A DNA stretch of 64,000 nucleotides from a virus (IMGVR_UViG_3300044213_000107:124001-188000); one strand, 5' to 3'; positions 11,025 through 52,050 are shown, numbered from the stretch's first letter. Notes: generated by a model from the sequence alone, not told the origin. Numbers and translations: made by a program.

Positions 11025-11055
11025 ATTATAACAGATTTTGGGCTCAAAAACGCAA
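11025..11055 (-). promoter_or_regulatory. Extended -10 promoter, leaderless GIY-YIG gene
   Basis: TGT-TATAAT (11025-11033) with a weak -35 (TTGCGT at a long 19-bp spacing). The start codon is 6 nt downstream of TATAAT. Confidence 0.55.
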
Positions 11056-11080
11056 AAACCCGCCAAAAAAGCGGGTTTTT
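11054..11080 (-). terminator. Strong hairpin terminator
   Basis: Ten-pair stem, AAAAACCCGC (11054-11063) with GCGGGTTTTT (11071-11080). A-run and T-run on either side make it usable on both strands. Confidence 0.85.
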
Positions 11081-45008: not shown

Positions 45009-45014
45009 AGGTGT

Positions 45015-45044
45015 ATATTAACACATTTGTTAAATGCAAGTCAA
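45015..45044 (-). promoter_or_regulatory. Promoter of HARP-like/uvsW operon
   Basis: TTGACT (45039-45044), 18-bp spacer, TAATAT (45015-45020); ATG 6 nt downstream. The -35 box lies at the end of the preceding terminator T-tract. Confidence 0.55.
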
Positions 45045-45048
45045 AAAA

Positions 45049-45068
45049 ATCCCTGCCGAAGCAGGGAT
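45049..45068 (-). terminator. UUCG-loop terminator
   Basis: ATCCCTGC-TTCG-GCAGGGAT on the minus strand followed by TTTTTT: 8-bp stem with the stable UUCG tetraloop, ending the AAA+ ATPase gene. Confidence 0.92.
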
Positions 45069-45071
45069 AAA

Positions 45072-45112
45072 ATATCGCCCAAAGAAAGGAGCTAGAAAAA
45101 CACGGGCGATAT
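45072..45112 (-). other. 3'-UTR hairpin with anti-Shine-Dalgarno loop
   Basis: Nine-pair stem ATATCGCCC/GGGCGATAT encloses a 23-nt loop that on the minus strand reads CTAGCTCCTTTCTTT, complementary to Shine-Dalgarno sequences of the AAAGGAGCT type. It lies between the ATPase stop and the UUCG terminator. Confidence 0.6.
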
Positions 45113-45117
45113 AAAAA

Positions 45118-46149
45118 TTATACTTTCATACAGGTTGTTTGAGCCATTAGTTTCCATTTAATTGGAAAGCTCTTACGCAATTGTGCAACCTTGATTGCCA
45201 TGCGCAAACTCATTTCACGCAATTTATTTTGATTGACTTCCATAAACTCAATCACTTCATCTTGTGCAATCTGCTCTAGGTCCATGTCTGCAAACAATGC
45301 ACCGTCTTGCGCAATCTGCTTGATACGCAAAATCTTATCACGCATTGTATCCAATGTCAAATCAAGATAGTGACAACGGCTTTGTAACGCATCTAAATGA
45401 TCACGAAGTTTTTGACTCTTGAGTCCATCAAACTTGAGATTAGTGATAAAAATCACACTTCCTTTAAACTCAAAACTATCAGGGATGCCTTCTCTACGCA
45501 GGGTAGAGCTTTCTGACAACCAACTAATTTTGCGTTTCTTACCAGAGTCCAATGCACCTTTAAGCAAGTTAAGTGACACGTCATCTAATAAAATGCTATC
45601 ACAGTCGTCAAACACAACTACACAATTGGGATCCGAATACTTGTACAAAGTTTGATACAAACCAATCGGTGTAGCACTACCTTTAACAACTTCTGCACGT
45701 AAACGCTTGCCAGCAATTTGGTCAAACAAACATGCTTTCTCGATGATTTGCTCTACACCAAAACTCTTACCTACTCCAGGAGGACCCGACACAATCATAG
45801 CACGAATTTCGCCATTGGTTGCGGCTTTTGTCATTTCGTCTAGGATCTCAAAACGCTCACGGATACGTGCAATAACTTCTTCGTCGGTTTCAACAGGAGC
45901 AGCCGTATGTGTAGGAGCAACTGCGACTGACGCAGGTACATCGGCACCAGCGACAAACTCATAGTCTGCAGGACTAGAAACTTTAACACGAATCTGCTCA
46001 GGAAAGCCCGGAAAGATACCGCCATTCATAACAGTAACATATCCACCTTTGGCAGTAGATTTGTACTGCTCAACAAGTTGGAATACTAACCCGGAAACAT
46101 CTGTTGTGCGATATGCACCTGAAGTAATACGAATAAATGCGTTTGACAT
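45118..46149 (-). CDS. AAA+ ATPase
   Basis: 343 residues from ATG 46149 (AGGAGCT 6 nt upstream). An N-terminal strand-rich domain (about 1-90) precedes the ATPase core: Walker A GPPGVGKS, Walker B VVVFDDCDS, sensor VIFITNLKF with the Asn, and an arginine-finger-like LQSRCHYLDL. This type is conserved in T4-like marine phages; role unknown (perhaps DNA packaging, replication or host remodelling). It has its own terminator-promoter module. Confidence 0.85.
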   Translation of the reverse strand: MSNAFIRITSGAYRTTDVSGLVFQLVEQYKSTAKGGYVTVMNGGIFPGFPEQIRVKVSSPADYEFVAGADVPASVAVAPTHTAAPVETDEEVIARIRERFEILDEMTKAATNGEIRAMIVSGPPGVGKSFGVEQIIEKACLFDQIAGKRLRAEVVKGSATPIGLYQTLYKYSDPNCVVVFDDCDSILLDDVSLNLLKGALDSGKKRKISWLSESSTLRREGIPDSFEFKGSVIFITNLKFDGLKSQKLRDHLDALQSRCHYLDLTLDTMRDKILRIKQIAQDGALFADMDLEQIAQDEVIEFMEVNQNKLREMSLRMAIKVAQLRKSFPIKWKLMAQTTCMKV

Positions 46150-46179
46150 TTCAGCTCCTGTTTTGTTTAATATGTGTAT

Positions 46180-46208
46180 ATTATAACATGATTTAAAAAC
46201 CCGAGCAA
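46180..46208 (-). promoter_or_regulatory. Promoter in terminator-promoter module (ATPase gene)
   Basis: TTGCTC (46203-46208), 17-bp spacer, extended TGT-TATAAT (46180-46188). The -35 box is in the loop of the upstream terminator. Confidence 0.8.
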
Positions 46209-46221
46209 GCATCGGGTTTTT
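46195..46221 (-). terminator. Terminator fused to promoter
   Basis: Ten-bp stem AAAAACCCGA (46195-46204) with TCGGGTTTTT (46212-46221), loop of 7 nt. Confidence 0.85.
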
Positions 46222-46242
46222 GAGTGTTGCATTTTTGCAACA

Positions 46243-46455
46243 TTATTTTTCTGTGGGTTTTTCAGTTTCTAGCGTAAAAAGTACCAATTTGTAAAGGTAA
46301 AAAATAACCAGGCCCAGAAAAAAATTGTTTACAAGGTGGTGCATTGTTTCCGGGGAAACATTATCCGTTATAAAATTAAGAATGTATGCTACCGCTGTAA
46401 GTAGAATTAACATTCCTGCAGTGATAATTGCGGCTTTAAGTTTAAGGTTTCTCAT
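46243..46455 (-). CDS. Small two-helix membrane protein
   Basis: 70 residues from ATG 46455 (TGGAGAAC upstream; longer form would need TTG). Two hydrophobic helices: about 8-29 (AAIITAGMLILLTAVAYI) and 41-62 (NNFFLGLVIFYLYKLVLF), with a short charged tail. Holin-like by size and topology, but its early-type promoter and distance from the lysin make another membrane role as likely. Confidence 0.6.
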   Translation of the reverse strand: MRNLKLKAAIITAGMLILLTAVAYILNFITDNVSPETMHHLVNNFFLGLVIFYLYKLVLFTLETEKPTEK

Positions 46456-46497
46456 GTGGTTCTCCAAAGTTAAGTATGATTTAATTCCTGTACGTGT

Positions 46498-46526
46498 ATT
46501 ATAGCAAAATGCCCATTGCAGGGCAA
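46498..46526 (-). promoter_or_regulatory. Promoter of the membrane-protein gene
   Basis: TTGCCC (46521-46526), 17-bp spacer, extended TGC-TATAAT (46498-46506). The -35 box is in the arm of a weak hairpin, TGCCC/GGGCA at 46510-46525. Confidence 0.75.
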
Positions 46527-46530
46527 ATTG

Positions 46531-46911
46531 TTATACTTCTAAGTTGTAGTCTTTTCGCAACACTTCTAGGCATTGCTCGCGGGTGCGCTTGGTTACAACA
46601 ACTTTTCCACCAAAAAATCCCACGTAAAGATTACGGTGCTCAACAAACTTCACTTCGCCATCTGCGCCTGTGTGTTTTTGACGCACAGGCGCTTTTTTGA
46701 CTGCAGCTTTGGCTTGTGGGATTTTTGCAACTTTTTCCATGGGTTTGGAAGGTAATACTTTGGTATTAGTTTTTGTTTCAGTTTTGAACCCGTGTTTTTT
46801 GTCGTACTTGGCAATAAATGCTTCGTCTTTGCCCCATGTTGCCAAAAGACGACGAACTTCAGTACCGGGCAGTTGATTCCAATGAATAACAGGGTCTGTC
46901 CAATTTGTCAT
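46531..46911 (-). CDS. Lys-rich hypothetical protein
   Basis: 126 residues: an N-terminal helix (HWNQLPGTEVRRLLATWGKDEAF), a Lys/Ala/Pro linker (KIPQAKAAVKKAPVRQKHTG) and a C-terminal beta-alpha segment with NLYVGFFGGKVVVTKR. It might bind nucleic acid. AAAAAGGAGC ribosome binding site and its own promoter; weak terminator downstream. Confidence 0.6.
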   Translation of the reverse strand: MTNWTDPVIHWNQLPGTEVRRLLATWGKDEAFIAKYDKKHGFKTETKTNTKVLPSKPMEKVAKIPQAKAAVKKAPVRQKHTGADGEVKFVEHRNLYVGFFGGKVVVTKRTREQCLEVLRKDYNLEV

Positions 46912-46941
46912 TTAGGGCTCCTTTTTGTTTCGTATGTGTGT

Positions 46942-46970
46942 ATTATAGCACCAGAAAGAAACCCGCACAA
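46942..46970 (-). promoter_or_regulatory. Promoter in terminator-promoter module
   Basis: TTGTGC (46965-46970), 17-bp spacer, extended TGC-TATAAT (46942-46950). Confidence 0.8.
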
Positions 46971-46981
46971 TCTGCGGGTTT
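46959..46981 (-). terminator. Terminator overlapping the -35 box
   Basis: AAACCCGCA (46959-46967) pairs with TGCGGGTTT (46973-46981), loop of 5 nt. Confidence 0.85.
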
Positions 46982-47005
46982 TTGAGTGTTGTTTTTAGAC
47001 AACAA

Positions 47006-47227
47006 TTAAAATTTGTTATCCATGTCTATTTTATAGACTTTGGCTAACGCGGCCGTTAACTGTCGATAATTTTCTTGAGCCGCTCGATACCCATCGTCGT
47101 ATCCTTCTTGGTATCGTGGGTCAGTGGTTAATTTTTCCTCGTCTTCGTTTAGACTTCGAAGTAGTGCACGGAGTTGTCCTGCTCCGCCTCGAGGCATTTG
47201 TGGAAAATTATTACTATCAAGGGACAT
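47006..47227 (-). CDS. Small acidic hypothetical protein
   Basis: 73 residues. Central repeat-like EGYDDGYRAAQENYRQL segment is helical; the N-terminus is flexible. GAGGAGA lies 6 nt before the ATG and the gene overlaps the 83-residue gene upstream by 11 bp. No function recognised. Confidence 0.6.
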   Translation of the reverse strand: MSLDSNNFPQMPRGGAGQLRALLRSLNEDEEKLTTDPRYQEGYDDGYRAAQENYRQLTAALAKVYKIDMDNKF

Positions 47228-47465
47228 TTTTAATCTCCTCTACACGTATGCCTTTCATTATAAGCAGAATGGCTTCTTGCTCATCAACAATGCGTTCCTT
47301 TTGGAATTTTTTAGCATTTAAAATAATTACACGGTGAGTGATATCTCCGTTAATGTCCGTTTCTTTTTTGTGAACAATAAAACGTTCTTCATTGTCGTGT
47401 TTTATTTCACAATCGGGGTCATTACGGTATCGATTCCTGTCATCAACAACTCGATATTGTTTCAT
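47217..47465 (-). CDS. Small hypothetical protein
   Basis: 82 residues from ATG 47465 (AAAGGATG upstream). RYRNDPDCEIKHDNEERFIV then HRVIILNAKKFQKER suggests alternating strands and helices. An in-frame extension to 47540 runs into structured non-coding sequence and is disfavoured. No family recognised. Confidence 0.55.
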   Translation of the reverse strand: MKQYRVVDDRNRYRNDPDCEIKHDNEERFIVHKKETDINGDITHRVIILNAKKFQKERIVDEQEAILLIMKGIRVEEIKNVP

Positions 47466-47540
47466 TTTGAAACATCCTTTTATAAATGTTGCTGATTTGC
47501 CGTTGATCTTGTACCGGCCTATCCGGCCAAGACCTACCAT

Positions 47541-47645
47541 TGATACGATCGCTGGACTCGCTGTATGTTCGCATCTGACATTGCATCAGGGGCCAGCGAG
47601 TGACTCCAATCAGCCTGGAGTTATTTGTATTATTTGCTACTTTTA
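47541..47645 (-). other. Structured non-coding segment between small genes and methyltransferase
   Basis: Contains stem ACTCGCTG (47556-47563)/CAGCGAGT (47594-47601), an alternative CGCTGG/CCAGCG pairing using the same arms, and hairpin ACTCCA/TGGAGT (47603-47621). It does not fit tRNA geometry and has no U-tract. It may be a leader, a small RNA or a transcription-attenuation element. Confidence 0.4.
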
Positions 47646-48374
47646 TCAGGTATTTGATTGAACCTGTGGGGCAACGATTGTTTTATCTTTTCGTTTAGTG
47701 CCCGGTCTTTGGAATTTTTTGGGCTTACTGGTTTTGATTTCATTTTCGAGTCCTTCTCCTGTAAATACAGATAGATTTGGTTTAAGTTTTTCTTTAGGTT
47801 TTTTTGGCTCTGCCGAAGTTATCTTGTTAATAATAACTCCAAGTTTCTTAAGAGTTGCGGTTAATTCCTTTTCTCTTAATTTCTTCTTTTCTTCTTTTAA
47901 TCGTTTTTCTTTTGCTTTTGTTTCTTTTTTTCTTCTTCTTTCTTCTTTTAATTTTCGTTTTTTGTCCATTTGATTAAACTTATAATCAAATTTTAATGCA
48001 TCAGCACAGTATATATTCTGTTCTACAATCGGGCGTAAATCTTCTCTACCACATAGCAATCGTTCTCTGCATAAGTCCACATTGTCCTGCATAAGGTCAA
48101 CACCGTAGATGGTAGATAATGCTTCTTCAAAGGTAGCACCATTCTCCATTTTACGGATTAACACTTCGCCAAGGAACTGTCCATCACCACAACTAGGATC
48201 TAAATATGTTTTTGTAGAATCTGTAAACAATTCAGTAGGTAATTGATCTAATATTTCTTGCACAAGCAGAGTGGGGGTAAAGACTTCTCCTGTTGCCTTT
48301 ACCCTTGTTTGTTCTCGCTCAACACCGCCCATGTAAGTGCGATTGCGGATATAGTCAATTACCTTACTTAACAT
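47646..48374 (-). CDS. Partial N6-adenine methyltransferase with coiled-coil tail
   Basis: 242 residues from ATG 48374. GEVFTPTLLVQEILDQLP and YLDPSCGDGQFLGEVL are motifs X and I of adenine-N6 DNA methyltransferases, and IYGVDLMQDNVDLCRERLL is motif II. The catalytic NPPY motif is missing; instead a very charged Lys/Glu helix (about 150-190) and a basic tail follow. It overlaps the large helicase-methyltransferase gene by 11 bp. It may be a degraded partner or a regulatory SAM-binding subunit. Confidence 0.75.
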   Translation of the reverse strand: MLSKVIDYIRNRTYMGGVEREQTRVKATGEVFTPTLLVQEILDQLPTELFTDSTKTYLDPSCGDGQFLGEVLIRKMENGATFEEALSTIYGVDLMQDNVDLCRERLLCGREDLRPIVEQNIYCADALKFDYKFNQMDKKRKLKEERRRKKETKAKEKRLKEEKKKLREKELTATLKKLGVIINKITSAEPKKPKEKLKPNLSVFTGEGLENEIKTSKPKKFQRPGTKRKDKTIVAPQVQSNT

Positions 48375-51300
48375 TTGCTTCAATGTAATCAATTTCTTCT
48401 TGTGTTAGGCCAAAGTGAGTATATAGTTCTGCGTCAGTCCAGATCTTACTAGCGAGTTTAGGCAATGATGACAACACTTTTCCATTAAGGAAACCGCTCC
48501 ATTTACCTGTGTTTACGACAAATTTGTAAAGTTTGCTATTAAGATAACTTAGAATATGTTGCGATTCTGCTGAGTTTGTTAAAATATATTGGCATACTTC
48601 TGAGGTTCCTAGATGGCCTTCACTATAGAAAGGTTTAAAATAACCACTTGTAGTCCAAATAATCTTAGACTTTAAAAAGTCTTTTGATTGTTTTTTACAA
48701 AATTTTGTTTGAGCATTAGTATGGAATGTTTCATACTTGTAAGTCGAGTCTTTAGTGTCAGAAAAATTCTTATGCTTATGGTCGCTATGGCACGATGTAT
48801 CGCAAAGAATATCTAACTTGGAGTGAGCTGAGTTAATTACTTTATCATGTATAGGAAATGTTTTAGAGAAATTTCTCGGAAGATATTGGAGTTTAGCAAG
48901 GTCAACTTCTAGTCCGTCAATTAATGCCGTTGAGGTATTCTTATTTTTTTGCATAACCCATGCTGTAAAACTACTACCAACTGTAAAATATTTTCCAACT
49001 TCAGTATCGACCCAAATCAAAGAGTTATCTTTAAACATTTTAAGGACTTGACTGTTTGGGCTCATCCAACTGTCGGGGGTAACAAATGCAATATACCCAT
49101 TTGTGTTGAGTAGTTCGACCCCTTTGTCAACAAACTTACTCCACAAATTATGACTCTTGGGTTGTTTTGTCCCCTTGTCATTGTTACCTTGATAAGGAGG
49201 ATTACCTACTACTACATCAAATTTCATATCAAACTCCAATTCTGTAAAATCGCCTTTCACTACTGTGATGCTAGGGTATTTGCGTTTAATCTGATTGCAG
49301 AAAAAACTGTATTTGTCATTATACACAATCTTGTCTACAATATCAACGCCAAACATATCCACAAGCACGTCAATCTCCGATCCGTGACCACCGGCCGCTA
49401 CAAGTATCTTTTTGCAATGTTTACTTTTAATAAAACGCTTTAGTTCTTTATTATCAAAAATATCAAACCAAAGTTTAGTATCATCTTTAAGAATGGCCAA
49501 GGCATTATTCTCAATATGCTTCTGTTTATTATTATATTTACTCATCCGCACAATCATATCCAGAGTAGAAATTTCTAGTCTAGGTGACAGTCGTTTGATA
49601 GACGCAGGCTTAATTCCGTAAAGTTCTGCAAACTCTCTGCTCATTTCTGCATCAGCATCAATGATGTCCACACACTCAAGGAAACTCTCACCTTGATAAT
49701 TACTCAAAGCCAAGACAGTTGTGGCACTTCCGTTGATCATACGGATTGCTTTTTCTACGATTGCTTTAAGAGGATTTTTTTTTGGACGGCCCGATGCTGT
49801 ATTGCCCGAATCAAAAGTCTTGCCAGTGGCAACGACTTTGTCAATTTTAGATTTCTCTGCCTTGCTTCCAGATGATCGTTTAGCCAATTCGCTAAGGTCT
49901 TCTATCTCTTCCGAAGTCAAATCTTCAATAGTAAGACGAGTATGTGCATTAGCAATTTCTAACAGTTTATTGTTGTCTTCAAACTGATTAATAACTTCTT
50001 CAGCATCAATCCATTGCCCGGAAATCATGTCCTTGATGTTGACGCTATTCATTACTGTCCGTACAGCATCAGGGTAGGTCATACCCTTTTGCCGAATTAG
50101 CAATGCCGCTTCTACTGCTACGCTCATAACAGTATTACGAGTCTTACTTTGATCAAATGCAAAGTCAAAGATGTGACCAAACTTCTTGCCAAAGCCAGGT
50201 GTAAGGCAACGGCTATATTTTTGCATGTAAGGATAGACATCGCCGCCTTCTTGCATAAACAAACAGGCTTGGATCTCAGGAATACTATAACTACGAGTAC
50301 CCATCATATTAGTAATCACTAACAGTTTATCACGTCCCGGATAGTATCCGTTTTGCAAACGCACCAATTCTTCTTTGGTAAGACCTTCGGCTTCTTTGTT
50401 ATCTGTATAATCGCCGTTAAGAATCAACACCTTGTGTTCTGCACAATGCTTCTCAATGATTTCTGCCAAAGCCTCCATTGCCTTTTTAGAGATGTTAACA
50501 AACAACATAAGATTGTTAATAATCTCACCTGCGGCTTGGCTCAGGTTCATTCCGTAGATAGGCTGATACCCTAACAAGTCTTGGAAAACTGCGGCAATAA
50601 ATTTTTCTTGCGAACGAGCCTTTTCGAGGATTTTATTAATGTTTGGCAACACATCCTTGTCAAAGTCTTCCAATAGTTTGTTCATCTTTGGATTAAACAA
50701 CATATTGTAGAATCGACGCACTACTACATTAGGAATGCTCGGATCTTGTTCTACCATACAGTAAGGAACACTAATAATTTCGTCAATGGCATTCTTACCA
50801 AATGCCTTTGCTAGTCGACCAATATTAGTACCACTAGCATTGATCCGTGTTACAGTCTTGTTTGCTAGAATGTATTCAACTTTTTCGACTTGGCTGTCAG
50901 TATGAGTACCAAAGTCTGTTTCCTCTAGCAAGGCAATATGGGTGCCTTGTAGTTGATTAATCCATTCATATTTTTCTTCTACTTCGGGGTTAAGGCTGAT
51001 AAACACAACGGGCATCTTACCATCTGCGATAGCCTGTTGATACTGTTGTTCTGCGTCCGATTCAGCGGCATCGATAAATGTCACGTCAGCGAAGTCAACG
51101 TATTTAGAAACTTCGTCTTTGTATGATGTTTTAACACTAAGACCGACACCGTAGGCCATGATAAACATAGACTCGTGGCCAAATTCTTCTCGCATGTTTT
51201 TTGCAAGAGACAGGAACAAGATAGTTTTACCAATTCGGGCAGCAAGTTCGCAGACAAAATTAGTTACAACTCCATTTTGTCGAAGAGCAGACAATACCTT

Positions 51301-51786
51301 TTTAATAACAAGAATCTGAATATCTCGTAAATTTACAGCCTGCTTTTCATGATCGGGGTTAAGTTTTGCGGCACACCTGCGGATTTTCTCATTGAGCCAA
51401 ACACGTATGGGTTCAAAATCTTTTGACTTAACAAAATCCTCAATAAAATATTTTTCTACTGCAATCTTAAACAATTCTGAATGGCGATTAGAATCAGGGC
51501 GAGGCAATTGAGCGGCAATAGATTGACGAACTATTTCATGCAAAGCATGATCACGATATCCGGGTTCAGGAATCGTATCTAGCAAATACTTTTGCCAAGA
51601 AACATTTTTAGAACTAGAAAGACTTAATTGTCGTTCGGCAATAGTGCCTTCAACTGTATCACCGATACCAAACTGTAAGAAACCAGTAGACACCATCGCG
51701 TCAATCCAAGTTTCTTCAGTCATTACGTAGATACCTGTAGTGTCAGTTGCAAGACCAAATTCTACAGGACTTTTAACGTAACTCAT
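48364..51786 (-). CDS. Helicase / adenine-N6 DNA methyltransferase fusion
   Basis: 1140 residues from ATG 51786 (TGGAG 7 nt upstream). An N-terminal region (1-170) precedes a helicase-like ATPase with AARIGKT (182-188) and LLEETD (286-291), and further Type I/III-R-like sequence. Residues about 810-960 form a methyltransferase: ILVAAGGHGSE (SAM site) and GNPPYQG (NPPY at 862-865), then FVTPDSWM. The C-terminal 200 residues resemble a target-recognition domain. No clear PD-(D/E)XK nuclease is seen. Layout recalls single-chain Type ISP/IIG restriction enzymes without the nuclease; likely self-methylation or anti-restriction. Confidence 0.75.
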   Translation of the reverse strand: MSYVKSPVEFGLATDTTGIYVMTEETWIDAMVSTGFLQFGIGDTVEGTIAERQLSLSSSKNVSWQKYLLDTIPEPGYRDHALHEIVRQSIAAQLPRPDSNRHSELFKIAVEKYFIEDFVKSKDFEPIRVWLNEKIRRCAAKLNPDHEKQAVNLRDIQILVIKKVLSALRQNGVVTNFVCELAARIGKTILFLSLAKNMREEFGHESMFIMAYGVGLSVKTSYKDEVSKYVDFADVTFIDAAESDAEQQYQQAIADGKMPVVFISLNPEVEEKYEWINQLQGTHIALLEETDFGTHTDSQVEKVEYILANKTVTRINASGTNIGRLAKAFGKNAIDEIISVPYCMVEQDPSIPNVVVRRFYNMLFNPKMNKLLEDFDKDVLPNINKILEKARSQEKFIAAVFQDLLGYQPIYGMNLSQAAGEIINNLMLFVNISKKAMEALAEIIEKHCAEHKVLILNGDYTDNKEAEGLTKEELVRLQNGYYPGRDKLLVITNMMGTRSYSIPEIQACLFMQEGGDVYPYMQKYSRCLTPGFGKKFGHIFDFAFDQSKTRNTVMSVAVEAALLIRQKGMTYPDAVRTVMNSVNIKDMISGQWIDAEEVINQFEDNNKLLEIANAHTRLTIEDLTSEEIEDLSELAKRSSGSKAEKSKIDKVVATGKTFDSGNTASGRPKKNPLKAIVEKAIRMINGSATTVLALSNYQGESFLECVDIIDADAEMSREFAELYGIKPASIKRLSPRLEISTLDMIVRMSKYNNKQKHIENNALAILKDDTKLWFDIFDNKELKRFIKSKHCKKILVAAGGHGSEIDVLVDMFGVDIVDKIVYNDKYSFFCNQIKRKYPSITVVKGDFTELEFDMKFDVVVGNPPYQGNNDKGTKQPKSHNLWSKFVDKGVELLNTNGYIAFVTPDSWMSPNSQVLKMFKDNSLIWVDTEVGKYFTVGSSFTAWVMQKNKNTSTALIDGLEVDLAKLQYLPRNFSKTFPIHDKVINSAHSKLDILCDTSCHSDHKHKNFSDTKDSTYKYETFHTNAQTKFCKKQSKDFLKSKIIWTTSGYFKPFYSEGHLGTSEVCQYILTNSAESQHILSYLNSKLYKFVVNTGKWSGFLNGKVLSSLPKLASKIWTDAELYTHFGLTQEEIDYIEANVK

Positions 51787-51958
51787 CTTCATCTCCAAAA
51801 TCTGCAGAATCAATTTGATCTTGCCAGTATACACGAGCCTCGGCTTCATTGTCAAAGGTTTCCAACACCTTCATTCCACCAAGAGGATGCGGAAACCACA
51901 CCAAGAATTTTCCGCTGTCCTCATCTTGTGTACAGTACAATTCTACCGGTTCGTTCAT
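51773..51958 (-). CDS. Small acidic hypothetical protein
   Basis: 61 residues: KFLVWFPHPLGGMKVLETFD and ARVYWQDQID suggest a mini alpha/beta fold. It is the first gene after a perfect TTGACA-17-TATAAT promoter and overlaps the helicase-methyltransferase by 14 bp, so it is probably the leader gene of that operon. Function unknown; an inhibitor of host restriction would fit the place but is speculation. Confidence 0.6.
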   Translation of the reverse strand: MNEPVELYCTQDEDSGKFLVWFPHPLGGMKVLETFDNEAEARVYWQDQIDSADFGDEDELR

Positions 51959-51987
51959 ACAACCACCGCTTTCGTTAATATGTGTAT

Positions 51988-52016
51988 ATTATAACACCAA
52001 AAGAAAACCCTGTCAA
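51988..52016 (-). promoter_or_regulatory. Perfect consensus sigma70 promoter
   Basis: TTGACA (52011-52016), 17-bp spacer, extended TGT-TATAAT (51988-51996). The TTGACA is formed by the loop and 3' arm of the terminator. Confidence 0.9.
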
Positions 52017-52028
52017 ACACAGGGTTTT
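52004..52028 (-). terminator. Terminator containing the -35 box
   Basis: AAAACCCTGT (52004-52013) pairs with ACAGGGTTTT (52019-52028), loop CAAAC. It ends the GT9-like gene. Confidence 0.88.
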
Positions 52029-52050
52029 TGGGTGTTGTACAAAAACAACA

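Follow-up and report, generated by a model that had tools for sequence, protein, structure and literature searches.

Terminator-type hairpins laid over extended -10 promoters at gene borders of a large phage

Sequences of terminator type and promoter sequences overlap at gene borders of a large bacterial phage, and this overlap is real, recurrent and non-random. Judging by sequence, we consider it probable (roughly 0.62) that the resulting modules are compact cassettes that would end one gene and start the next, resembling promoter early stem-loop (PeSL) cassettes but with the two elements overlapping. The window, meaning the whole 64,000-nucleotide stretch analysed, comprises bases 124001-188000 of a virus record of 260,723 bases (IMGVR_UViG_3300044213_000107). 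Its proteins match phage helicases and ribonucleotide reductase (NrdA), and the nearest cultured matches of its ATPase gene (45.1-46.15 kb) are PA5oct-like jumbo phages (Arenbergviridae) at ~40% identity; the virus is a large bacterial phage with some T4-like genes. Direct DNA comparison of a 24-kb half-window with the known phages of a phage collection returned no close relative, an Rfam search gave no match and a tRNA search found none.

Four modules lie on the minus strand, at 46.2, 46.5, 46.95 and 52.0 kb (Table 1), and, as the earlier note had described, their -35 elements (TTGCTC, TTGCCC, TTGTGC and TTGACA, respectively) each stand exactly 17 bp before an extended TGnTATAAT. By sequence this is a sigma-70-like promoter, TTGnnn-17-TGnTATAAT with a conserved start region. 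The further claim that the -35 lies in a hairpin or its loop, with the 3′ arm and U-tract as spacer, holds for 46.2, 46.95 and 52.0, where an AACCC-N11-GGGTT hairpin of 9-10 bp places the -35 at the end of the loop and the start of the 3′ arm, and where the spacer begins with that arm and the T-tract. At 46.5 the -35 instead forms the 5′ arm of a 5-bp stem. The consensus -35 is present only at 52.0 (6/6) among the four; 46.5 matches it at 4/6 positions and 46.2 and 46.95 at 3/6 (TTG only), so that at the latter two promoter function probably leans largely on the extended -10. A promoter at 10.67 kb, previously thought similar, has only the 5-bp palindrome TTTGGTTGACCAAA and no U-tract, and lies within chance (p=0.13). 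The region of fused modules had also been drawn from 45.009 kb, but that end adjoins a different type of arrangement with an ordinary UUCG-loop terminator.

Table 1. Positions of the modules, a neighbouring terminator and the accessory block in the window
Feature	Position	Strand	Remarks
Module 52.0, hairpin AAAACCCTGTGTTTGACAGGGTTTT, then CTTTTGG	52004..52028	-	10-bp stem, contains -35, d=+14.5
Module 52.0, -35 TTGACA	52011..52016	-	in loop and 3′ arm
Module 52.0, -10 TATAAT	51988..51993	-	TG extension, 17-bp spacer, ATACACATA after -10
Module 52.0, second palindrome TGTTG-N8-CAACA	52033..52050	-	immediately 3′ of upstream stop codon
Module 46.95, hairpin AAACCCGCAGATTGTGCGGGTTT, then CTTTCTGG	46959..46981	-	9-bp stem, d=+7.5
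Module 46.95, -35 TTGTGC	46965..46970	-	
Module 46.95, -10 TATAAT	46942..46947	-	17-bp spacer
Module 46.95, second palindrome TGTTG-N8-CAACA	46987..47004	-	
Module 46.2, hairpin AAAAACCCGATGCTTGCTCGGGTTTTT	46195..46221	-	10-bp stem, d=-14.1, under usual cut-off
Module 46.2, -35 TTGCTC	46203..46208	-	
Module 46.2, -10 TATAAT	46180..46185	-	17-bp spacer
Module 46.2, second palindrome TGTTG-N8-CAACA	46225..46242	-	immediately 3′ of upstream stop codon
Module 46.5, weak hairpin TGCCCTGCAATGGGCA, then TTTTGC	46510..46525	-	5-bp stem, d=-32.9
Module 46.5, -35 TTGCCC	46526-46521	-	overlaps hairpin 5′ arm
Module 46.5, -10 TATAAT	46498..46503	-	17-bp spacer
45.0-kb neighbour, adjacent type	45015..45068	-	UUCG terminator, T-tract into TTGACT, 18-bp spacer, TAATAT
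Accessory block between modules 46.2 and 52.0	46243..51958	-	ORFs of 70, 126, 73, 107, 248, ~1140 and 61 aa

Terminators were scored by the d'Aubenton-Carafa d with a cut-off of d>0, a value reached by 0.2% of random stretches. All four sites had been taken for terminators; 52.0 and 46.95 do score as intrinsic terminators, as does a copy at 104.4 kb of the record (d=+11.9), whereas 46.2 is marginal, under the cut-off, and 46.5 is weak and clearly fails. With intrinsic terminators the modules share a G+C-rich stem and a T-tract, but their loop and 3′ arm carry the -35 and their T-tract is spacer. With extended -10 sigma-70 promoters they share TGnTATAAT and a TTGnnn at 17 bp, but their -35 is often off consensus where the hairpin needs it. 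Two other terminators deserve mention. The best plus-strand terminator of the record (46664-46692, d=+36.5, 13-bp stem, T6) falls within the minus-strand ORF of 126 aa and would thus stop antisense transcription, and a strong terminator at 11025-11075 (d=+13.7) is followed by TGTTATAAT 28 nt beyond, an adjacent arrangement and not a fused one.

The overlap exceeds chance in the record. Searching its full length for the motif yielded 20 promoters. In 6 of these a strong stem covers the -35; shuffles that kept base composition and not order had a mean of 0.99 (maximum 4 in 400). Of the 26 terminators predicted, three have a -10 no more than 22 nt away, each at exactly +14, where 0.42 would be expected. 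AACCC-N11-GGGTT occurs in seven copies, six at a promoter with the -35 inside and the -10 in register; repeats with gaps other than N11 have no -10 in register. Modules 46.2, 46.95 and 52.0 are 71-74% identical over 80 nt and are thus copies.

The arrangement also recurs in many uncultured phages, for which CCC-N5-TTGnnn-GGG-N14-TATAAT provides a searchable signature with at least 85 non-redundant copies in public viral contigs. When the gap was left free, the distance from ACCC to TTGACA in viral contigs was 5 or 6 in 51 of 81 non-redundant cases among the matches listed. A stricter form, ACCC-N5-TTGACAGGGT-N13-TATAAT, gave 2 matches in 84,980 bacterial and archaeal genomes, which is near chance (~0.5 expected for its 20 fixed bases, by our estimate). 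Across 224 non-redundant promoters taken from the record and from 160 related or motif-bearing loci (among the matches listed), strong hairpins cluster just before the -35, in the adjacent position, and again over the -35 and spacer, and the overlap takes several geometries across phages. TTG-17-TGnTATAAT occurs just twice in PA5oct and just twice in RB49. A match in an Acinetobacter phage (E 0.01) proved to be an ordinary terminator without a -10, not a fused module, and matches in Escherichia phages at E 0.2 are weak. Other hairpin forms were also seen: in one relative, L020 (8991-10001), three short gene cassettes follow one another, each carrying a TTTGCCCARAAATGGGC promoter hairpin in which the -35 is the 5′ arm and no U-tract follows, and in other phages palindromes fill the spacer up to the -10, as in L170 (4117 and 4368), L109 (8245 and 9222) and RB49 (33312, 43008 and 158946). 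These spacer-filling palindromes, which have no U-tract, look more like operators.

In the window, each module sits between a stop codon and the ribosome site of the following same-strand gene, whose start codon comes a few tens of bp after the -10, so the compaction pointed out in the earlier note reads well; the modules show how tightly phages can pack a gene border. Of 84 modules in the wider set (among the matches listed), 78 come after the end of a same-strand ORF, a position that is partly expected because phage genes are mostly unidirectional. The four modules sit in and around an accessory block that is absent from 80 related loci holding the ATPase gene: none of its seven ORFs was found there, and since some of these loci are short, absence from those is weaker evidence. 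The same 80 loci contain a 386-aa gene in 65 cases and a UvsW-like helicase gene in 74. In relatives, the interval between the upstream gene (52.05-52.8 kb) and the ATPase gene is filled by other genes and measures from ~0.7 kb upward, and such variability fits, by analogy, the cassette shuffling described for PeSLs. In one relative (L034:7351-10001) the same two flanking genes enclose what by eye are genes for GroES- and GroEL-like chaperonins. The largest gene of the block (47646-51855) encodes a ~1140-1163-aa protein whose C-terminal part gave a DNA-methyltransferase match and which, upstream of that part, looks helicase-like; it is possibly modification or defence-related, and the 248-aa ORF overlaps its end.

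PeSL cassettes of T4-type phages were reportedly described by Arbiol et al. 2010 (Genome Biol Evol 2:140) and Comeau et al. 2014 as strong, early-expressed sigma-70-like promoters with an adjoining stem-loop that ends transcription, present in several copies between which genes are exchanged by recombination. Our comparison with them runs through citing papers and stretches of RB49. In the parts of the citing literature that concern them, these cassettes combine a promoter with a stem-loop and are associated with cassette shuffling (PMC4503421; also PMC3950731). As far as those parts go, the modules share with PeSLs a sigma-70-like promoter joined to a stem-loop, and a repeated occurrence among small accessory genes where gene content varies. 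They differ in that the RB49 stretches have terminator-like hairpins upstream of an intact TTGACA, whereas here the -35 itself lies in the hairpin; in some RB49 promoters the spacer itself contains a palindrome. A search of largely open-access literature for fused terminator-promoters found no clear earlier description. The modules appear to be a tighter variant of the known promoter-terminator cassettes of T4-type phages.

If the modules are such end-and-start cassettes, a host sigma-70-type extended -10 promoter (TTGnnn, 17 bp, TGnTATAAT, ATACACATA at the start region) would start the downstream gene, and the terminator-type hairpin of the upstream same-strand gene would be laid over its -35, so that the spacer opens with the 3′ arm and T-tract. 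The T-tract would most likely be where the upstream transcript ends, and the new one would begin some 25 bp further, and copies would be repeated between accessory genes, at cassette borders, as PeSL motifs are. That the hairpins terminate, that transcription starts at the modules, that it is early and that the copies serve recombination are points we infer from the sequence. The palindrome ACCC-N11-GGGT could instead be an operator at which a dimeric phage or host regulator, bound across the -35, represses or activates, the hairpin being incidental. The spacing is indeed strikingly fixed, many modules retain CCC and GGG although the enclosed and flanking bases pair little, and related phages carry the spacer palindromes without a U-tract mentioned above. 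We nevertheless find this explanation unlikely, since the arm and the -35 co-vary: among the 85 modules (matches listed), a -35 other than TTGACA/T pairs with the 5′ arm in 10 of 13 cases, against 11 of 72 for the remainder (Fisher 2e-5). Both inner pairs are present in 21 of these modules versus 10.1 in shuffles, the 9 nt after GGG hold 5.2 T in the modules (among the matches listed) where other promoters have 2.6, and the best copies reach terminator scores. Although the outer arms are not alike from one module to the next, they pair above shuffles (mean 2.09 versus 1.36). Taken together, the co-variation, the inner pairs and the T-rich stretch favour a selected terminator-type hairpin that bends the -35. 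The module sequences are related by descent, and stricter removal of redundancy weakens the co-variation (Fisher 0.027 with 28 modules, 0.055 with 11). Because many modules have little or no inner pairing and only 6 of the 85 (among the matches listed) pass as terminators by core-hairpin scoring, an operator role is possible for part of the family. Most relatives retain the orthologous promoter in front of the ATPase gene without an overlapping hairpin, which makes the promoter the conserved part.

Crowding could also account for the overlap: terminators and promoters share short gaps between genes and might have met by accident, or through a copy that was duplicated, at no benefit. The copy relationship of 46.2, 46.95 and 52.0 agrees with this, as does Acinetobacter phage Acba_1, whose plain terminator has a near-identical hairpin without a -10 and shows that such hairpins can come near a -35 unaided. 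This explanation sits poorly, however, with an overlap that appears in several geometries in different phages and above shuffles, and with departing -35 boxes that retain their pairing with the arm, and we regard it as quite improbable. According to the earlier note, structure in the RNA or the DNA could disturb both termination and initiation where they overlap; read in this way, the overlap would be a regulatory switch. The geometry lends itself to this, as a DNA cruciform would disrupt a -35 placed in loop or arm, but arms of 9-10 bp are short for cruciform extrusion. Moreover, a terminator hairpin is a fold of the emerging upstream RNA and not of the promoter DNA, and by itself leaves the -35 in double-stranded DNA unhidden; with the DNA promoter unblocked the idea of interference is not needed, and we give it very little credence. 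Occlusion of the promoter by passing polymerase is a plausible candidate effect. A polymerase that releases the upstream RNA in the T-tract might also be already on the next promoter and restart there, a handover that we suggest by analogy and hold to be decidedly doubtful. In vitro, polymerase is retained on the DNA once intrinsic termination has occurred and is able to restart nearby (PMC6978380), and there, too, a promoter stands beside the point of RNA release; that system differs in being in vitro, with E. coli polymerase and constructed templates on which terminator and promoter are separate. Such restarting makes the handover testable, and the modules are natural constructs with which to ask whether polymerase, once it has terminated, starts again from a promoter at that very position. 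If it does, traffic through the upstream gene would feed the downstream promoter.

A second palindrome, TGTTG-N8-CAACA, accompanies three of the modules (Table 1) and occurs at 75456, 75868, 86160 and 104453 of the record. It lies immediately 3′ of the upstream stop codon, with the -10 exactly 40 nt away in five promoters and 33 and 53 nt away in two more. We considered it as an activator site and rejected this, since its distance to the -10 varies in the record (40, 33 or 53) and it abuts the -35 in other phages. TGTTG..CAACA has 25 matches in the record versus 2-13 in shuffles, and the palindrome is also found upstream of promoters in relatives.
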